DNA of 23,634 nucleotides from a virus, in the IMG/VR virus record IMGVR_UViG_3300033571_006426, positions 1 through 23,634 of that record. One strand, written 5' to 3'. A program made the position numbers and the translations under genes. Within the stretch, counting starts at the first letter, position 1. Each line of letters opens with the position of its first letter. The notes beneath the pieces were generated by a model, which ran no database searches, had not been told where the DNA came from, and saw only the letters and a list, made by a program, of their open reading frames with translations. Shown one piece after another: positions 5,897-23,634 of the stretch.

Positions 5897-6496
5897 ATGA
5901 GCAAAATATTAAAGTATATCAATGGCGAGTTGGTAGAGTATGAAATTCTGCCTCTGGTAGATTTCTATGACCCAATTCTTAGAAAGCCAACTATACCATT
6001 CGACTTTAACCAACCCAACGTCACAAAGGTAATTGACTATTACGCATACTCACTCGCCGAAACCATGAGCAAGTATGGTGGCTTGGGCTTGTCTGCAAAT
6101 CAGTGCGGATTGCCGCATCGAGTTTGCGTTATCAACATGGGTGATAAAATTTGGACGCTATTCAATCCTTACATCATTGAAAAAAATGAAGTGCCCGCAG
6201 ATTTTTCTGAAGGCTGCTTGAGTTACCGTGGATTGTATTTAAAACTGAATCGCTCGAATCATATCAAGGTAAGATTCCAAGCGTTAGGTGGCCAGTTTGT
6301 TGAACAAGAATTTGATGGGTTGACTGCCGTCTGTGTTCAACATGAACTAGATCATCTAGACGGGGTTGTATTCACTGAAAAGGTCAGTCCAATAAACTTG
6401 GAAAAAGCAAAACGAAAAGTCAAGAAAAATCTCAAGAGAATGGATTCGGTCACTGAAAAAGAGGTTGAAACGTACCTAAAAACCGTCGGAGCGTAA
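5897..6496 (+). CDS. def: peptide deformylase
   Basis: 199 residues with all three family motifs: motif 1 GLGLSANQ (62-69), motif 2 EGCLS (105-109, metal-ligand Cys107) and motif 3 QHELDHLDG (148-156, two His ligands and catalytic Glu). It should remove the formyl group from nascent N-terminal fMet. Phage deformylases occur in marine T4-like phages, where they are thought to process phage or host photosystem or other proteins made during infection. The C-terminus is a basic helix, as in some short phage forms. Starts 4 nt after the homing endonuclease stop with only a weak AGGTG-like ribosome site. Its TAA stop is the first triplet of the first repeated promoter box. Confidence 0.95.
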   Translation: MSKILKYINGELVEYEILPLVDFYDPILRKPTIPFDFNQPNVTKVIDYYAYSLAETMSKYGGLGLSANQCGLPHRVCVINMGDKIWTLFNPYIIEKNEVPADFSEGCLSYRGLYLKLNRSNHIKVRFQALGGQFVEQEFDGLTAVCVQHELDHLDGVVFTEKVSPINLEKAKRKVKKNLKRMDSVTEKEVETYLKTVGA

Positions 6497-6553
6497 GTTA
6501 TTGATTTCATTAGAGTTTTTTCCCTTTACTTTTTGTTGATTTTAAGGGATAAT
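6494..6553 (+). promoter_or_regulatory. repeated promoter module, copy 1 (box + sigma70-like -35/-10)
   Basis: A conserved box at 6494-6520 (TAAGTTATTGATTTC, then AT, then TAGAGTTTTT), -35 TTTACT at 6525-6530, a 17-nt spacer and -10 GATAAT at 6548-6553. A 41-nt stretch (6492-6532) is identical to copy 2 at 8974-9014. Only six bases separate the -10 from the ATG at 6560, so transcription should start at or next to that A. Confidence 0.85.
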
Positions 6554-6559
6554 GGCTCC

Positions 6560-8968
6560 ATGAAAACTAATTTACAGTCTTCCAAATCTATTCTCGCCAA
6601 ACTTTTGGCTTCCGAGAATATCACGGTCTCGCACCAAAACGTCAAGACCGCATATTTTGATCTCAAGGCTCGCACGATGGTTCTTCCAGTATGGAAGGAC
6701 ATGGACGGCGATCTTTACGATTTGCTCACGGGTCACGAAGTGGGTCATGCTCTGAACACCCCCGAGCACGGGTGGCATGATCAAGTCACCCAGAACGAAA
6801 AGAAGTTCAAAGATTTTTTGAACGTCATCGAAGATGCTCGCATCGAGAAACTTATCAAGCGCAAGTTCCCTGGACTCTCCAAGTCCTTTGCTCGTGCTTA
6901 TGCTTCGCTGTATGAAAGCGATTTCTTCGGCATCAAGAAACTCGACGACCTGAACAAACTCAATCTTATTGACCGTGTAAATCTTCGGTTTAAGATGGGC
7001 GCGCATGTCGTTGTTGAGTTCAACGATTTCGAGCGTGAAATCGTCAAAGAAATTGATGCCGCTGAAACTTGGGATCAGGTTGTTGACATCGCTGGTCGTG
7101 TGTATGACTATGTGAAGACACACGAGAAAAACAAAGTCCAAAACCAAGACGATCTTCAAGATCAGATTCTAGAGCAGATGCGAAATCTTCAAAATGAAGA
7201 AATTTCCGATGACTCTCAAGGCTCCGAAGACGAAGACGAAGAAGAAGAAGATTCTTACGATCTGGGCGAAAGCGATGAATCGGACGACGAATCGGAATTA
7301 GATGAAGCGTCTGATGGCTCCGACTCATATGATCCAGATAATTCTGATGAGTCCGACGACTCCGACGACTCCGATGATTCAGACTTTAATTCTGAATCTA
7401 GTGGTTCAGGCGGAGACAGCGACGAAGATGACGATGAAGACAGCGACGAAGATGACGATGAAGACAGCGACGAAGATGACGATGAAGACAGCGACGAAGA
7501 TGACGATGAAGACAGTGACGAAGATGACGATGAAGACAGCGACGAAGATGACGATGAAGACAGTGACGAAGATGACCAAAATGATGGACCGCAGTCAGTA
7601 ACTGACCGCAATTTCCGTCGCCGTGAGCGGGAACTTGTCAATCAATCTGGTAAAGTCCTTATGTTTGACTTGCCTGATGCTGTTCTTGACAACATCATTC
7701 TTCCTAACACGGAAGTCATCAAAGACCTAGAAAAATACTTCCGAGACGATGCCACCAAAAAGGCAGAACGCTATCGTGTAACCAGCATCGCATATGAAAA
7801 ACTTGCTCAGGAATCCACACGCAAATTTAATGCCAGCAACAAGAAAGTCATTATGCATATCTTGAAGGAATTTGAGATGCGCAAGAAGGCGAGCGAATAT
7901 GCTCGAACTCAGACTGCTCGAACTGGCGAACTGAACATGAATGTACTACACAAGTACCGTTTCAGTAACGACTTGTTCCGTAAGATCGAAGTTGTGCCGA
8001 AAGGCAAGAATCATGGCTTTATCATGTTTGTTGATATGTCTGGCTCGATGACAGATATTCTCCGCAACACGATTGAGCAGATGCTTGTGCTTGCGTCCTT
8101 CTGCAAACTTGCCAAGGTTCCGTTTGACGTTTATGGGTTCTCTAATGATTTTTACGACAACGAAAAACTGCGCGAAATGCGAAGGAAAAGTAGTCAGTTT
8201 GTGTGCAACCCTAATGTTGATATTGGACTCGATGCTAGTAGTTTTCATCTGAAGCACTTGATTGGTTCTTCTTTGTCACATACACAATATCGTCGTGCTT
8301 TCAACGCGATGTGTGTTGTTGCCATCGGATCCAATGGATATCTTCCAAAATCATCTGGGTTTGGTTTGAACGCAACCCCGTTTATTGAGACTCTGCTCGC
8401 TTCCCGTGATATCGTGACCAAGTTTCAGCGCGACAATAAAGTTGATGTTTGTAACGTTGTCTACCTGACTGATGGTGAAGGCCGCATGAATTTGGTTCAT
8501 CCTCAAACCACGAATTGGTCAGAGGTATTAAAATCTGTTGTGTATCTTGTAGACAAGAAAACCAAGAAAAAGATCAAGTTGCCTCATAGTGGTGCTTCTG
8601 CTTACCAGAGCGCCATCACTCAACTTGTTGCTGATGTTACTGGCTGCAAGCACATCGGTTTTTATCTTGGCGATCAGAAATACTACAGAGAAAATTTCAA
8701 GCACTTGATGTATGGCAAGTCCTATGAAGAAAGTCGATTGGCTCATAAAAGTTTCAAAGAAAATAACCACTTTGTGACCAGTAATATTGGTTATGAGAAG
8801 TATTTCTATGTTGTTCTTCCGAATACCAACATCACCGACCAAAAACTCGTGATCACTGGTGATATGACCAAGAATAAGATGGTTCGCGAGTTTACCAAGA
8901 CTGTCAATAGCAAGAAGACCAACCGACTTCTGTTGACAAAACTCGCTGAAGAATTGGCTGTTTCGTAA
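6560..8968 (+). CDS. CobT-like protein: HExxH metallopeptidase-like domain, acidic repeat linker, C-terminal VWA domain
   Basis: 802 residues from the ATG at 6560. The longer frame from TTG 6533 is rejected because it would read through the promoter's -10. N-terminal HEVGHALN (His59, Glu60, His63) is a zincin-type motif. Residues ~215-350 are Asp/Glu/Ser-rich with an 8-residue DEDDDEDS repeat. The C-terminal half carries a VWA domain with MIDAS DMSGSM (Asp492) and a LTDGEG segment. This three-part layout matches CobT, the VWA subunit of the cobaltochelatase-type AAA+ pair, and the partner ATPase lies immediately downstream. In a phage without other cobalamin genes in view, a MoxR/VWA-like remodelling chaperone is at least as likely as cobalt insertion. 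No ribosome site precedes the ATG; expected to be leaderless. Confidence 0.85.
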   Translation: MKTNLQSSKSILAKLLASENITVSHQNVKTAYFDLKARTMVLPVWKDMDGDLYDLLTGHEVGHALNTPEHGWHDQVTQNEKKFKDFLNVIEDARIEKLIKRKFPGLSKSFARAYASLYESDFFGIKKLDDLNKLNLIDRVNLRFKMGAHVVVEFNDFEREIVKEIDAAETWDQVVDIAGRVYDYVKTHEKNKVQNQDDLQDQILEQMRNLQNEEISDDSQGSEDEDEEEEDSYDLGESDESDDESELDEASDGSDSYDPDNSDESDDSDDSDDSDFNSESSGSGGDSDEDDDEDSDEDDDEDSDEDDDEDSDEDDDEDSDEDDDEDSDEDDDEDSDEDDQNDGPQSVTDRNFRRRERELVNQSGKVLMFDLPDAVLDNIILPNTEVIKDLEKYFRDDATKKAERYRVTSIAYEKLAQESTRKFNASNKKVIMHILKEFEMRKKASEYARTQTARTGELNMNVLHKYRFSNDLFRKIEVVPKGKNHGFIMFVDMSGSMTDILRNTIEQMLVLASFCKLAKVPFDVYGFSNDFYDNEKLREMRRKSSQFVCNPNVDIGLDASSFHLKHLIGSSLSHTQYRRAFNAMCVVAIGSNGYLPKSSGFGLNATPFIETLLASRDIVTKFQRDNKVDVCNVVYLTDGEGRMNLVHPQTTNWSEVLKSVVYLVDKKTKKKIKLPHSGASAYQSAITQLVADVTGCKHIGFYLGDQKYYRENFKHLMYGKSYEESRLAHKSFKENNHFVTSNIGYEKYFYVVLPNTNITDQKLVITGDMTKNKMVREFTKTVNSKKTNRLLLTKLAEELAVS
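7415..7576 (+). repeat. 24-bp in-frame tandem repeat (about 6.7 copies) coding for DEDDDEDS units
   Basis: Six full 24-bp units start at 7415, 7439, 7463, 7487, 7511 and 7535, and a partial one at 7559; they differ only by GACAGC/GACAGT. Each adds eight acidic residues to the CobT-like linker. Near-perfect identity implies recent expansion by slippage or recombination. Length changes in whole units would keep the frame. Confidence 0.95.
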
Positions 8969-8975
8969 GGCACCG

Positions 8976-9035
8976 TAAGTTATTGATTTCATTAGAGTTT
9001 TTTCCCTTTACTTTCGAGTGTTTTTAGGGGATAAT
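8976..9035 (+). promoter_or_regulatory. repeated promoter module, copy 2
   Basis: Box at 8976-9002 identical to copy 1, -35 TTTACT at 9007-9012, a 17-nt spacer and -10 GATAAT at 9030-9035. Six bases separate the -10 from ATG 9042. It drives the mini-ORF and the CobS-like gene. Confidence 0.85.
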
Positions 9036-9082: not shown

Positions 9083-10447
9083 GTGAGTAATAAAATGCCC
9101 AGAAAATCTAATTATGATACTCTCGATTCGCGCATCGAAATACTTGAACAGTTGACTGCGTATTTCGATAAGGAAACTATTTCTCTCAAGGAATTGGATT
9201 CTTTTGTCAAGGACGAGAACAACAGCGTTAAGGGTTATCCATATTTTATCTTGCGCGAGCGCAAGGTAAATCACGGTCAGTATAACATCGTCCCGAAGCA
9301 TGTAGGGTGCATTACTCCCGCTGCTCCGAAGCAGAAGCAGACTGTTGCTGCTGAAGTTGCGGCTCCCGCGATGGTTGCGCAGGTTGTGAACATCGCGGCG
9401 AAGCGTGCGCAAAACGTCACCGAGTCGTTTGTGCCTGATCGCAACGAAACGTATGTTCCGTTCGGGTTTTATAATGATCTGCGTGACATTATCAAGTCTC
9501 GCATTTTCTATCCTATCTACATCACAGGTCTTTCTGGTAACGGCAAGACGTTCATGATTGAGCAAGTTTGTGCTGCGCTCAAGCGTGAGTTGATTCGCGT
9601 CAACATCACCAAGCGCACCGATGAATCTGATCTTATCGGCTCTTACGAACTTGTTGACGGCAACACGATTCGCCGCGAGGGTCCAGTCATCACCGCGATG
9701 CGTCGTGGCGCTGTACTGCTTCTTGACGAGACTGATCTCGGCACGGAAGACATTCTGTGCTTACAGCCTATTCTTGAAGGCAAGCCATACTTCGACAAGA
9801 AGACGGGTGAGGTTGTTCATCCTGCCGCTGGTTTCAACGTGATCGCGACTGCGAACACGAAGGGCAAGGGCAGCGATGACGGTCGATTCATCGGCACGAA
9901 TGTGCTGAATGATGCTTTCCTTGAACGATTCGCTATTACGGTTGAACAGGAATATCCGCCAGCAGCAACCGAGCGCAAAATTCTTGAGAAGAATTTTGAG
10001 ACTCTTGGTCTTACTGATGCTACTTTCATCGAGCATCTAATCACTTGGGCTGATATTATCCGAAAGTCTTTCGCGGATGGTGCAGTCGATGAGATTATCT
10101 CGACCCGTCGCCTTGTGCATATTGCCAAGGCATTTTCGATCTTCGGCAATCGACTGAAGGCAATCGAAATGTGCTTGAACCGATTCGATGGCGACACCAA
10201 GACTGCGTTCGTGGATTTGTACACGAAGGTTGATGCGGAAGCGACACTGAAAGCCGCAGCCAAGCCAACTGTTGATTTGAGCGAGTTGGGTGTGCACAAA
10301 AATTCATATGACTATAGTGTAACTTTTACTTACGGGAGTAGATCGCTCTTTTTATGTGCTACTGAAATCGACAATTTGAAGCAAGAGGGGTGGACCGATG
10401 AACAGATCAAACTCAAGGCTTTAGAAACCCTTGCGAAGACGATTTAG
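9083..10447 (+). CDS. cobS: CobS-like AAA+ ATPase (MoxR/cobaltochelatase-type)
   Basis: 454 residues from GTG 9083; an in-frame ATG at 9095 is an alternative. An N-terminal ~70-residue domain is followed by an Ala/Val/Pro/Lys-rich linker (80-110) and an AAA+ core: Walker A GLSGNGKT (149-156), Walker B VLLLDETD (211-218), and a sensor-1-like IATANT (~253). The dynein/MoxR-like insert and NDAFLERF segment (arginine-finger region) follow. CobS with CobT powers metal insertion in aerobic cobalamin synthesis, and cobS is common in T4-like cyanophages. Here it sits next to a CobT-like VWA/metallopeptidase protein under an identical promoter, so the two very likely work as one ATPase-adaptor machine. 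The actual substrate is unknown. No SD is seen; start by reinitiation after the 12-codon ORF is plausible. Confidence 0.85.
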   Translation: MSNKMPRKSNYDTLDSRIEILEQLTAYFDKETISLKELDSFVKDENNSVKGYPYFILRERKVNHGQYNIVPKHVGCITPAAPKQKQTVAAEVAAPAMVAQVVNIAAKRAQNVTESFVPDRNETYVPFGFYNDLRDIIKSRIFYPIYITGLSGNGKTFMIEQVCAALKRELIRVNITKRTDESDLIGSYELVDGNTIRREGPVITAMRRGAVLLLDETDLGTEDILCLQPILEGKPYFDKKTGEVVHPAAGFNVIATANTKGKGSDDGRFIGTNVLNDAFLERFAITVEQEYPPAATERKILEKNFETLGLTDATFIEHLITWADIIRKSFADGAVDEIISTRRLVHIAKAFSIFGNRLKAIEMCLNRFDGDTKTAFVDLYTKVDAEATLKAAAKPTVDLSELGVHKNSYDYSVTFTYGSRSLFLCATEIDNLKQEGWTDEQIKLKALETLAKTI

Positions 10448-10478: not shown

Positions 10479-10850
10479 ATGACAGACCTTAACCAAATGT
10501 GGATGCGCCTCGCAGAACACCAATCCTTTGCCGACCAGCGAGGATATGGTCTTGAGTGGAAAACAATGTGCGAAGAGCGCACACCCGAAGCAGCGGAGGC
10601 GGCGGCGAAAGCGGCGGCGGCAGAGGCAGAGGAGTTGGCGTCGGCAGCGTATGAGGCAGCGTATGCGGAGGCGGAGGCGGCGATGCGGTATCATGAGGCG
10701 GAGGCGGAGGCGGCAGCGGAGGCTGCTGCTGCTGCAACGGATGCGGCGGCAGATGCGGCGGCTTGGGCGGCGGAGGCTGCGGCGGAGGCTGCGGCGGAGG
10801 CTGTGGAATTGGCAATCAAATCTATCAACAAAGCAGAGGACAAGCCATGA
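10479..10850 (+). CDS. alanine-rich paralog 1 of 5
   Basis: 123 residues. Conserved head shared with four neighbours: M-T-D-L-N-x-M-W, then L.EHQ..AD.RGYG..WK.MCE.RTPEAA. An alanine-dominated stretch (~36-110) of A/E/D with occasional Y, M, R or W follows, then a conserved tail SINKAEDKP. The alanine tract is written almost entirely with GCG/GCA codons, making the DNA GC-rich and low-complexity. Other frames here give Gly-, Arg- or Pro-rich shadow ORFs. The tract should be strongly helical. No signal peptide or membrane segment is seen. I do not recognise a named family. The stop overlaps the next paralog's start (ATGA). Confidence 0.8.
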   Translation: MTDLNQMWMRLAEHQSFADQRGYGLEWKTMCEERTPEAAEAAAKAAAAEAEELASAAYEAAYAEAEAAMRYHEAEAEAAAEAAAAATDAAADAAAWAAEAAAEAAAEAVELAIKSINKAEDKP

Positions 10851-11092
10851 GTACTCTTGACGAAATGTGGGCGCGTATTGAGGCGCATCAGCCGATCGCA
10901 GACAAGCGCGGCTACGGTACTGAATGGGCCAAGATGCGCCGAGAGCGGACGCCACGGGCGGCGTTTGCTGCACAGCGTGCGGCGGAGTGGGCTGTGAACA
11001 ATGCGGAGTGGGCGGCAACGTCGGCAGAGTGGGCGGCGGCGTGGGCAATGACCGCAATCGAGTCTATCAACAAAGCAGAGGACAAGCCATGA
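10847..11092 (+). CDS. alanine-rich paralog 2 of 5, with AEWA heptads
   Basis: 81 residues, beginning at the ATG overlapping the previous stop (the longer frame upstream is a Gly-rich shadow). Head: STLDEMWARIEAHQPIAD, then KRGYG, EWAKM and RERTPRAA. The alanine tract contains three perfect heptads A-E-W-A-x-x-x (DNA 10982-11044), which put Trp on one face of a helix and could form a coiled coil. The tail is SINKAEDKP; its last 30 nt of DNA, including the stop, are identical to paralog 1. The cysteine in the head of the other members (MCE) is replaced by Arg. Function unknown. Confidence 0.8.
   Translation: MSTLDEMWARIEAHQPIADKRGYGTEWAKMRRERTPRAAFAAQRAAEWAVNNAEWAATSAEWAAAWAMTAIESINKAEDKP
10982..11044 (+). 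repeat. three 21-bp units coding AEWA heptads
   Basis: Three consecutive seven-codon units start at 10982, 11003 and 11024, each beginning with codons for Ala-Glu-Trp-Ala. The first four codons are conserved and the last three vary (VNN, ATS, AAW), consistent with duplication followed by divergence. Confidence 0.8.
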
Positions 11093-11325
11093 CCGACCTT
11101 GACGAAATGTGGGCGCTGCTTGAGGCGCATCAGTCGTTCGCTGATGCGGGTGGCTACGGCAAGGCTTGGAAGATCATGTGCGAGCAGCGCACACCAGATG
11201 CGGCATGGGATGCGGCTTGGGCGGCGTATGCGGCAGAGGCGGCAGCGGATGCGGCGTATGCGGTAGAGGCGGCAGCGGCGGCAGCGGATGCGGCAGCGGT
11301 CGAGTATATCAAAAGGTATGAGTGA
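11089..11325 (+). CDS. alanine-rich paralog 3 of 5
   Basis: 78 residues from the ATG overlapping the stop of paralog 2. Head: TDLDEMWALLEAHQSFAD, then AGGYGKAWKIMCEQRTPDAA. An alanine tract with Trp and Tyr spaced 3-4 residues apart (AAWDAAWAAYAAEAAADAAY) follows. The usual INKAEDKP tail is missing; it ends EYIKRYE, and its last codons overlap the start of the zinc-ribbon gene by 8 bp. This member appears tail-truncated by the junction with the next gene. A 51-bp block in its head (11143-11193) is nearly identical to paralog 4. Function unknown. Confidence 0.8.
   Translation: MTDLDEMWALLEAHQSFADAGGYGKAWKIMCEQRTPDAAWDAAWAAYAAEAAADAAYAVEAAAAAADAAAVEYIKRYE
11143..11193 (+). repeat. 51-bp dispersed repeat shared by paralogs 3 and 4 (second copy 12247-12297)
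   Basis: The two copies differ at one position (TAC versus TGC, Tyr to Cys) although the rest of the two genes has diverged and about 1.1 kb and three other genes lie between them. The pattern suggests recent recombination or gene conversion. Confidence 0.85.
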
Positions 11326-11536
11326 TCTTGCAGAAATATGCGTGTGCCATCGCTGCATCAAGGAACAGGATTTGCGTGGTCCCGACGGATTTCTTCCGTT
11401 GAGTTCCACCCAAATGATCGTATGTCCAATTTGCGGCAACAAACGATGCCCCAAAGCCAGTGACCATCGACTGGAATGTACTAACAGCAACGAGTCGGGG
11501 CAACTTGGCAGCATTTACCGAGCAAAGAGGAATTAA
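11318..11536 (+). CDS. small zinc-ribbon-like phage protein
   Basis: 72 residues from the ATG at 11318, preceded by AAAAGG. Two cysteine pairs, C-H-R-C near the N-terminus and C-P-I-C (followed by GNKRCPKA), fit a zinc ribbon. The C-terminal DHRLECTNSNE and GQLGS segment recurs in many small phage proteins of unknown role. Probably a small metal-binding, nucleic-acid or protein-interaction factor; function unproven. The start overlaps the end of alanine-rich paralog 3, so it is in the same transcript. Confidence 0.75.
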   Translation: MSDLAEICVCHRCIKEQDLRGPDGFLPLSSTQMIVCPICGNKRCPKASDHRLECTNSNESGQLGSIYRAKRN

Positions 11537-11537
11537 T

Positions 11538-11708
11538 ATGACATTGCAAGAAGAAGTGAATGTGTTTCTGGACGATCTTCGCGAGACTGGTGCAATCAAT
11601 ATGTTTGGTGCCGCACCGTATGTTGCTGAAACTTTTGGTGTCAGCAAGCATGAGGCTCGTGATCTCGTTAAGAACTGGATGGAAACTTTTGCCGAAAGGC
11701 ACAAATAG
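11538..11708 (+). CDS. 56-residue hypothetical protein, possible HTH
   Basis: ATG at 11538, with AGAGGAA upstream and one base after the previous stop. Sequence: MTLQEEVNVFLDDL, then a helix-turn-helix-like stretch AAPYVAETFGVSKHEARDLV (~25-45) and a C-terminal amphipathic helix KNWMETFAERHK. The turn GVSKHEA is typical of small DNA-binding HTH proteins. This is inferred from the pattern only. The longer frame upstream overlaps the zinc-ribbon gene and lacks a ribosome site. Confidence 0.65.
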   Translation: MTLQEEVNVFLDDLRETGAINMFGAAPYVAETFGVSKHEARDLVKNWMETFAERHK

Positions 11709-11717
11709 GAGATTATC

Positions 11718-12179
11718 ATGGGATTGGATATGTTTTTGAATGCTAAAAGGTATCTCTCTGATTACGATGTCGCTGACAGGGTAAAGAAGGAAGCAATGAT
11801 GGAGTTGTTTCCTGAATTGAAGGCATACGTCATCGAAGAATACAACCCCATTGAACAGATTTCTGCTCAGGTTGGATACTGGCGCAAGGCAAACGCAATC
11901 CACAATTGGTTCGTTCAAAACGTACAGGGTGGCAAGGATAATTGCGCTAACTATTATGTCAGCCGAATACAATTGTTGGCACTGAAGAGTTTTTGTGAAC
12001 AGGTTTTGGCAGATAATAGCCTTGCCGAAAAACTTTTGCCGCCCGTTTCTGGATTCTTCTTCGGCAACACTGAAATCAACAAGTTTTATTTCAGTGATCT
12101 TGAAAGCACGGTGAAGATTATTGACGGCGCTCTTGCTCTTTCAGAGGATTGGGAGTTTGAATACCATTCTAGTTGGTAA
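11718..12179 (+). CDS. conserved phage hypothetical protein
   Basis: 153 residues; ATG preceded by TAGGAG. The pattern GLDMFL at the N-terminus, VGYWRKANAIHNWFV in the middle and PPVSGFFFG plus the C-terminal EYHSSW is shared by many phage and prophage proteins of unknown function. No catalytic motif can be named with confidence. It sits between the third and fourth alanine-rich paralogs, in the same direction and with tight spacing, so it is probably part of the same accessory operon. Confidence 0.8.
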   Translation: MGLDMFLNAKRYLSDYDVADRVKKEAMMELFPELKAYVIEEYNPIEQISAQVGYWRKANAIHNWFVQNVQGGKDNCANYYVSRIQLLALKSFCEQVLADNSLAEKLLPPVSGFFFGNTEINKFYFSDLESTVKIIDGALALSEDWEFEYHSSW

Positions 12180-12192
12180 GAGAGGATAAAAT

Positions 12193-12411
12193 ATGGACAA
12201 TCTTGACACAATGTGGATTCGTCTCGCAGAACACCAGCCGTTCGCCGATGCGGGTGGCTGCGGCAAGGCTTGGAAGATCATGTGCGAGCAGCGCACAGAA
12301 GAGGCAGCGAGGGCGGCGTGCGCCTCGGCACAACTAGCGTGGGCGGAGGCGGAGGCGGCGGTGGCGGTGGCGGTGGCGATTTATTTCATCAATAAAGCGG
12401 GGGGCAAATGA
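12193..12411 (+). CDS. alanine-rich paralog 4 of 5
   Basis: 72 residues, ATG preceded by AGAGGATA. Head: MDNLDTMWIRLAEHQPFAD, then AGGCGKAWKIMCEQRTEEAA. The alanine tract is short (~38-62) with Val/Glu/Trp (AEAEAAVAVAVAIYF), and the tail is FINKAGGK. The tail DNA (GCGATTTATTTCATCAATAA) is shared with paralog 5, whereas paralogs 1 and 2 share a different tail. The stop overlaps the next start (ATGA). Function unknown. Confidence 0.8.
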   Translation: MDNLDTMWIRLAEHQPFADAGGCGKAWKIMCEQRTEEAARAACASAQLAWAEAEAAVAVAVAIYFINKAGGK

Positions 12412-12707
12412 CCGACTTAAACGAGATGTGGACTCGCCTAGGAGAGCACCAACCGATTGCCGACGCTCGCGGGTATGGCGAGGCTTGGAAGATCATGTGC
12501 GAGCAGCGCACACCCGAAGCAGCGGAGGCGGCGGCGCAGGCGGCTTGTGCTGCAAAATATGTGGAGGATGGGGCGGTGGCAGCGGCGTGGTCTGTGGCGG
12601 AGGTTGTGGAGGCGGATGCGGGGTGTGCGCCGACCCGCGCAGCGGTGTGGTCAAGAATGGCGATTTATTTCATCAATAAAGCGGAGGCGAGCGATGAACA
12701 AAATTAA
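12408..12707 (+). CDS. alanine-rich paralog 5 of 5
   Basis: 99 residues. Head: MTDLNEMWTRLGEHQPIAD, then ARGYGEAWKIMCEQRTPEAA. The tract is more mixed than the others (AKYVEDGAVAAAW, then EVVEADAGCAPTRAAVW), followed by YFINKAEA and an extra acidic tail SDEQN. It is mosaic: its KIMCEQR block matches paralogs 3 and 4, the next 32 bp (12505-12536) are identical to paralog 1 (10577-10608), and its tail matches paralog 4. The 3' end overlaps the following gene by 14 bp. Function unknown. Confidence 0.8.
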   Translation: MTDLNEMWTRLGEHQPIADARGYGEAWKIMCEQRTPEAAEAAAQAACAAKYVEDGAVAAAWSVAEVVEADAGCAPTRAAVWSRMAIYFINKAEASDEQN

Positions 12708-21769: not shown

Positions 21770-21829
21770 TAAGTTATTGATTTCCCTAGAGTTTTTCCTG
21801 TTGCGTTTTTCGCCGAAAAAAGCGATAAT
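21770..21829 (+). promoter_or_regulatory. repeated promoter module, copy 3
   Basis: Box at 21770-21796 (as copies 1 and 2, with CC for AT), -35 TTGCGT at 21801-21806, a 17-nt spacer and -10 GATAAT at 21824-21829. The spacer holds a perfect palindrome TTTTTCGCCGAAAAA (21806-21820). Six bases separate the -10 from ATG 21836. Confidence 0.87.
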
Positions 21830-22149: not shown

Positions 22150-22332
22150 ATGAAATCTTATCAATACATTCAGTCGGGTAACGACAAGTTTGGTGCGCGT
22201 CACACCCTGTGGCACGTGGGCAATTACCAATACGAGATCGAATGTCGCGACACGGGCAAAAAGATTGCCCTTAATGACACCAATTTTGAAAAGGCTCTGC
22301 AGATTTTCCAGAGCGTCCTCTTAAGTTACTGA
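22150..22332 (+). CDS. 60-residue hypothetical protein
   Basis: MKSYQYIQSGNDKFGARHTL, then WHVGNYQYEIECRDTGKKI, then a helix NFEKALQIFQSVL. It reads as two or three strands and a helix. Not recognised. No good ribosome site: AAAGAG is 13 bases upstream of the ATG. It is the second gene after promoter copy 3, 41 bp from the previous stop. Its last codons and stop lie inside promoter box copy 4, showing how compact the arrangement is. Confidence 0.6.
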   Translation: MKSYQYIQSGNDKFGARHTLWHVGNYQYEIECRDTGKKIALNDTNFEKALQIFQSVLLSY

Positions 22333-22381
22333 TTTCCCTAGAGTTTTTCCTGTTGCATTTTTTCAATCTATTAGGCATAAT
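22322..22381 (+). promoter_or_regulatory. repeated promoter module, copy 4
   Basis: Box at 22322-22348, -35 TTGCAT at 22353-22358, a 17-nt spacer and -10 CATAAT at 22376-22381. Copy 4 and copy 3 match at 39 of 41 bases (22322-22362 against 21770-21810). Unlike the other copies, a normal ~30-nt leader with a ribosome site (AAGGAG) precedes ATG 22417. Confidence 0.85.
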
Positions 22382-23515: not shown

Positions 23516-23551
23516 ATGAGTTATTTCAAAGCAAGGGGAGAAAGTAAATGA
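23516..23551 (+). CDS. possible 11-residue upstream ORF
   Basis: ATG with AGAGG upstream, encoding MSYFKARGESK, and stopping in an ATGA overlap with the next gene. Its codons contain the next gene's ribosome site. It may be incidental; noted because other mini-ORFs precede genes in this window. Confidence 0.2.
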   Translation: MSYFKARGESK

Positions 23552-23634
23552 CCCGCGACGACATTATCCGACTGGCGCAAGAGGTTTGGTCTGCTGATGA
23601 TGCTTACAGCGCCGAATCACTTCATCGTTTCGCC
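23548..23634 (+). CDS. conserved small phage protein, 3' end cut by window edge
   Basis: Only the first 29 residues are present: MTRDDIIRLAQEVWS and ADDAYSAESLHRFA, still open at the last base. AGGGGAG lies just upstream. The MTRDDIIR.A start with a later L.RFA motif recurs in many small phage proteins of unknown function, in genomes of proteobacterial phages. No role assigned. Confidence 0.7.
   Translation, partial: MTRDDIIRLAQEVWSADDAYSAESLHRFA

Follow-up and report, generated by a model that had tools for sequence, protein, structure and literature searches.

The DNA at 10479-12707 (+) of an environmentally sampled, uncultivated phage raises the question of what is encoded by five short genes that share a head and differ in the alanine-rich tract that follows it. 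A preliminary description had proposed this set of same-direction genes, and all five were found. The window, i.e., the whole stretch of 23,634 bases analyzed, is the entire IMG/VR virus record IMGVR_UViG_3300033571_006426, which probably represents a fragment of a larger phage genome. By eye we took window genes to encode a helicase, an SbcC/46-like exonuclease subunit, a clamp and a clamp loader, and the 46-like protein finds its best database match in Synechococcus phage S-CREM1 (48.7% identity). Because of this gene content and this match we place the phage among the T4-like phages.

The last 87 bp of the window (23548-23634) are identical to positions 1-87 of L011, the T4-like contig IMGVR_UViG_3300033571_012887, which carries one further full and one truncated copy of the family. 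This suggests that L011 is the adjoining piece, from this phage or a very close one, and in view of the shared end the array probably continues beyond the window. L011 also bears a family-B DNA polymerase-like ORF.

A promoter-like element, TAAGTTATTGATTTCNNTAGAGTTTTT, is repeated in the window at 6494-6520, 8976-9002, 21770-21796, and 22322-22348 (four copies versus none expected from 100 shuffles). GATAAT- or CATAAT-like boxes follow three of the four copies, and elements resembling it are present in L009, L010, and L059. Tandem coding repeats for the acidic sequence DEDSDEDD are located at 7400-7600, inside a large protein (6533-8968) adjoined by an AAA+ ATPase gene (9083-10447); by eye we take this pair to be CobT/CobS-like.

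Anatomy of the Array

Paralog 1 (10479..10850, +; 123 aa) consists of a head (10479-10586), an alanine tract (about 10587-10820, 78 codons) and the tail SINKAEDKP. Paralog 2 (10847..11092, +; 81 aa) starts within the stop codon of paralog 1 (ATGA), has its head at 10847-10954 and its tract at about 10955-11065, and shares the tail INKAEDKP with paralog 1. Paralog 3 (11089..11325, +; 78 aa; head 11089-11196, tract about 11197-11313) has the divergent tail IKRYE. Paralog 4 (12193..12411, +; 72 aa; head 12193-12300, tract about 12301-12387) ends in INKAGGK and paralog 5 (12408..12707, +; 99 aa; head 12408-12515, tract about 12516-12647) in INKAEASDEQN.

The heads can be aligned gap-free over 40 residues, of which 16 are invariant (M1, L4, M7, W8, H14, Q15, A18, D19, G22, G24, W27, M30, R34, T35, A38, and A39), and the conserved head is 36-40 residues long. 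Exact matches of 42 nt connect the head of paralog 4 with L009 and that of paralog 5 with L010. The tracts were expected to differ widely in length and composition, and they measure 29-78 residues, with 34-55% alanine after residue 38.

Small ORFs had been described as interleaved with the paralogs, and three such ORFs separate copies 3 and 4. The first (11318..11536, +; 72 aa) contains Cys pairs and has a weak Lar-like match (PHROG 6422, E = 0.025). The second (11538..11708, +; 56 aa) has a weak HTH match and a relative in L032 (50% over 42 aa), while the third (11718..12179, +; 153 aa) matches phrog_7971, for which no function is assigned (E = 2.4e-9).

Translational Coupling of the Copies

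ATGA overlaps were seen at 10847, 11089, and 12408, as claimed, while the overlap is 8 bp between copy 3 and the ORF after it (ATG 11318) and 14 bp between copy 5 and an ATG at 12694. The junction GAGGACAAGCCATGA at 10836..10850 (+) supplies the codons for EDKP in the tail of copy 1 and holds a Shine-Dalgarno sequence (GAGGA) for copy 2, with start and stop overlapping within it; an identical junction lies between copies 2 and 3 (11078..11092, +). The shared INKA tail had been regarded as a part of the protein design. It is present in four of the five copies, but it is a protein motif only in part, since AAAGCAGAGGACAAGCC followed by ATGA also carries the Shine-Dalgarno sequence and start of the next gene. 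As the bases encoding KAEDKP in the window contain GAGGA a few bases 5' of the next start, and 41 of 62 family members end in ATGA, the need to translate the following gene accounts, at least in part, for conservation of the tail. The sequence indicates that the family copies are tandem and translationally coupled.

The Head Defines a Family of Phage Genes

In pairwise comparison of the window copies, 12-35% of nonsynonymous and 37-94% of synonymous head sites differ, corresponding to a pN/pS of about 0.2-0.5. Pooled over alignable pairs of equal length, which are not independent of each other, pN/pS was 0.25 in heads, compared to 0.55 in tracts. The five paralogs are real coding genes with heads under purifying selection. 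Coding conservation might have been missing, in the terms of the preliminary description; the opposite was seen, with pN far below pS in the heads.

A profile search with the head alone, which had been suggested as a check, matched about 100 uncultivated viral contigs. The search gave 103 loci, of which 80 were kept, and an iterated HMM search gave 99 distinct family sequences, the weakest two or three being doubtful (e.g., L028, E = 5e-3). Because of these further contigs, and of the difference between synonymous and nonsynonymous sites in the heads, the similarity of the paralogs is more than chance.

The statement that no family of this kind had been described holds for the head in all libraries searched, with no credible match in Pfam, PHROGs, NCBIfam, PADLOC, or PDB. 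The sole PADLOC match, to RT_UG22 (E = 0.0065, in one of 61 members), was taken as a low-complexity match and rejected. Searches by tblastn with several subtype heads gave no match in INPHARED phages or PLSDB plasmids, and the same search does recover relatives of phrog_18326 (21 INPHARED records). Bacterial genomes gave one doubtful locus only (L028), the genome of which had no match in a profile re-test. A fold search of PDB found no match (best E 2.2), and that of a viral library found one likely relative, the uncharacterised A0A6J5MX58, aligned over 70 columns at 43% identity (probability 1.00, but E = 0.24). We found no account in the literature of phage proteins with this type of head and Ala tract. 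Within INPHARED, PLSDB, and the viral contigs searched, the head family is seen solely in uncultivated phages; neither the curated libraries nor the records of cultured phages that we searched contain it, yet a profile finds it in viral contigs.

The Tract Is Predicted to Form One Long Helix

The monomer structures that had been called for were predicted with AlphaFold2 and the family alignment. Copy 2 (81 aa) was modeled with helices at 3-13, 15-21, 24-33, and 36-77 (pLDDT 93.3) and copy 1 (123 aa) with helices at 3-13, 15-21, 24-33, and 36-119 (pLDDT 93.8), values above 90 being those of the best of five models only. The head is thus predicted to comprise three short helices, with a single uninterrupted helix (42-84 residues) after them.

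Since AlphaFold2 can over-predict long helices in Ala-rich sequence, the tract sequences were tested directly for periodicity. We used a Fourier test for angular recurrence of residues other than Ala, Gly, and Ser, compared to shuffles. For 32 non-redundant tracts this gave z = 8.7 at 103 degrees (reached in 0 of 1000 shuffles; shuffle z-scores do not fully remove the shared ancestry of related tracts), with no signal at 80, 120, 140, or 180 degrees. Charged residues gave z = 5.0 at 100 degrees and aromatic residues z = 5.4 at 106 degrees, and the five tracts of the window alone gave z = 5.2. Because the non-Ala residues follow an alpha-helical repeat, the tract is selected as a helix with one small-residue (Ala) face. 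This selection is not universal, as members with (GCA KMC)n tracts show a 2-residue period in place of the helical one. The proposal of a constant head with a changing helical rod is supported by the AlphaFold2 shape, by the alpha-helical periodicity and by heads being more constrained than tracts.

The Tract DNA Behaves as an In-Frame Repeat

In the window tracts 81 of 123 alanines are encoded by GCG, compared to 25% in the background, and only one by GCC. Ala-rich members in general use alanine codons that are uniform inside each gene and different between genes, often regardless of the phage background, the types of dialect being GCG, GCT, or GCA/KMC. GCT dialects run at about 80-98%, with L049, the longer copy of L083, and L084 at 93-98%. 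The (GCA KMC)n pattern is strict, with rare exceptions, in L090, L092, and L075 (KMC is GCC, GAC, TCC, or TAC), and in L090 this holds despite a background GCG of 0.67. The low-Ala members L085 and L088 have no codon dialect. Across 70 tracts we counted 868 pairs of identical 12-mers versus 303 expected when synonymous codons were shuffled. The excess reached p < 0.05 (uncorrected) in 19 of the 70, including window copies 1 and 3, and was not individually significant by synonymous shuffles for window copies 2, 4, and 5. The tract DNA behaves as an in-frame coding repeat with one alanine-codon dialect per gene.

The GC3 of the window heads is raised too (0.66 versus 0.42 in the background), and the codon bias of the window may therefore owe something to transfer from a source richer in GC. 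Codon adaptation or recent transfer alone would not account for the tract codons, as in L090 GC3 is 0.89 in the head, 0.82 in the background, and 0.50 in the tract. The likeness of T-dialect tracts to NNT variation raised the possibility of a diversity-generating retroelement, which was rejected as the window fragment contains no reverse transcriptase (PF00078), a domain matched in control genomes. An overlapping second reading frame was set aside, since T-dialect tracts hold stops in the other frames. When one-step codon changes were scored by position, an excess of nonsynonymous over synonymous changes did not hold across all tracts.

These properties of the DNA bear on whether the tract is mostly neutral simple-sequence DNA, arising by triplet slippage and tolerated as soluble helical Ala/Glu/Asp sequence, with the head alone at work. 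Codon dialects independent of the phage, surplus exact repeats, wide variation in length and composition, and the strict hexamers of L090, L092, and L075 without helical period all fit such an origin. However, we consider it unlikely, given the 100-106 degree periodicity of non-Ala residues both in the non-redundant set of 32 and in the five window tracts, a tract pN/pS that is below 1 and the presence of like tracts on several unrelated heads. Purely neutral slippage as the whole story is rejected on the basis of the Fourier test. We prefer to read the tract as a selected helix; with its codon dialects and helical periodicity together, it shows that low-complexity sequence can be structurally selected and at the same time repeat-like in its DNA.

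Copies Are Gained, Lost, and Replaced

Comparison of copy number in related phages, another of the proposed checks, gave one to six copies per locus. Two to six copies were present at 14 of 68 non-redundant loci and a single copy at the other 54, where the two copies of L007 are one ORF and the three of L015 include a divergent minus-strand head. In L007 (9998-10804) two head-plus-tract units are read in a single ORF, a natural tandem fusion.

Over the 4,571 bp upstream of the array L012 and L032 share 99.2% identity, and just downstream of it 94%, yet L032 has two copies versus one in L012, and the copies at the shared position have 77% head identity and 67% tract identity. As the DNA immediately upstream of these copies differs too, the change is at least partly a cassette replacement. 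In the closest pairs the gene was either identical (L050/L051) or replaced in this manner (L012/L032), and no slippage in progress was seen. Most of the remaining fast-changing pairs differ more in the tract than elsewhere in the gene, with the exceptions L016/L024, L052/L082, and L085/L088; the last two loci are low in Ala and show little tract change (95% tract identity). In L036 and L013 the tract is followed by tails from other small-ORF families, i.e., module exchange. Copies are gained, lost, and replaced among closely related phages. The anatomy and evolution of the family are, as described up to this point, very probably correct.

Gene Neighborhood and Proposed Function

The neighbors at the 68 loci, named by eye, include an ERF-like annealase (10 loci), a YqaJ-like exonuclease (8 loci), and a DUF1364-like gene (7 loci). 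Such neighbors resemble the nin-like early accessory region of many temperate phages, the window itself being T4-like. The commonest neighbor, at 26 of the 68 loci, is a multi-copy small ORF family 'MTREDIIRLA...AIRARG'. This neighbor, also written 'MTRDDIIRLAxEAG...AEREACA...AIRARG' (e.g., L095:9893-10204 and L011:1-216), looks like another head-variable-tail family, and the tail of L036 seems to be borrowed from it.

Because early recombination genes adjoin the family at a minority of loci, an early host-interaction role suggests itself; we advance this function, which is drawn from gene context, as a tentative possibility that we lean against more than toward. The paralogs would then most likely be early accessory proteins that bind host factors, in host takeover or counter-defence. 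In Ala-rich coiled coils such as honeybee silk and the Alacoils, long Ala-faced helices are expected to pack closely, with several paralogs made together. The Ala faces of the phage tracts may likewise pack into a coiled coil, as a homo- or hetero-oligomer of co-translated paralogs. If they do, the array would yield a set of rods with one type of head and different exposed stripes of W, Y, E, D, and R. In-frame changes of the repeat may maintain their diversity, together with recombination within the tract and turnover of copies.

Ala faces, long predicted helices, and co-translated paralogs would also suit a self-assembling scaffold or filament of Ala-rich coiled-coil rods, serving a replication or takeover structure and having no specific host target, and the reading of two head-plus-tract units as one ORF in L007 is in line with this. 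Large tract variation and copy turnover among close relatives would be unusual for scaffolds, however, and most loci have a single copy; we regard a scaffold as quite improbable. The best explanation as a whole, namely early accessory proteins with an Ala-faced helix that are diversified by repeat change, recombination, and turnover, has in our judgment slightly less than an even chance of being right in all its parts. If the tract sets binding, it would offer phages a simple route to diversify small host-interaction proteins.

Tracts of the Same Type on Other Heads

A scan for (KMCGCA)6 gave 107 stretches. Although poly-Ala of unrelated origin, DA repeats, and stretches in other frames make up many of them, a considerable number are Ala-frame tracts, joined to five or more distinct heads, among them Imm5_like (L176), DUF7666 (L148), and phrog_3416 (L145). 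L151 encodes a longer Ala-tract protein whose second half resembles the window head. Four tandem 'MNAWSHLPNA...' Ala-tract genes are located at L091:2576-4300, on a contig that also has three copies of the window family. Other phage families with Ala-rich tracts are already in databases, and we found no tested function for those met. That phages share an 'expandable helix' module, in which an in-frame codon-word repeat encodes an Ala-faced helix on many unrelated heads and length change and swapping at the DNA level diversify early host-interaction proteins without a retroelement, is a generalization we consider doubtful. Several unnamed phage families with the same type of tract would be linked if the tract sets binding.

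It is very unlikely that the paralogs are immunity-like neutralisers, in which an Ala-rich helix of Imm5 type would bind toxins or nucleases and be fused to varied heads. This reading is favored by two other-head (GCA KMC)n proteins matching Pfam Imm5_like (L176, E = 2.2e-11, above the cut-off; L196, E = 2.3e-5, just below it). It is opposed by window members having no Imm5 or Imm5_like match up to E = 10 with the Pfam profiles, by most other tract-bearing heads having no Imm5 match and by no toxin gene being recognised beside the arrays among the clustered neighbor ORFs.

Comparison with Known Systems

The putative immunity proteins Imm5_like and Imm5 (PF21805 and PF14423) resemble the window family in that the matching phage proteins L176 and L196 have an Ala-rich (GCA KMC)n tract, whereas their head sequences are unrelated. 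The unassigned phage protein phrog_18326 (head 'MIHTTLNKIRA...DPRSVAALDVAERYA') likewise has a separate head and an Ala/Trp-rich tract. It co-occurs with the window family in L008, and similar heads are found in L010, L069, L071, and L086. It differs by its longer, distinct head and, unlike the window family, has relatives in cultured phages; only paralog 3 matched it, weakly (E = 0.34) and mostly over the tract, which does not indicate homology of the heads.

Honeybee silk is an Ala-rich coiled coil (PMC12284834). The phage tracts share with silk and Alacoils the periodicity of an Ala-faced helix, as found by the Fourier test. There is no homology, and any assembly of the phage proteins is putative.

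At the DNA level the tracts resemble coding tandem-repeat (contingency-type) loci, with repeat-like DNA within the gene, length changes between relatives and, as for slippage loci, an excess of exact repeats beyond the demand of the protein. They differ from contingency-type loci in that the tract units are in-frame codon words, so that length, and not an on/off state, would change.
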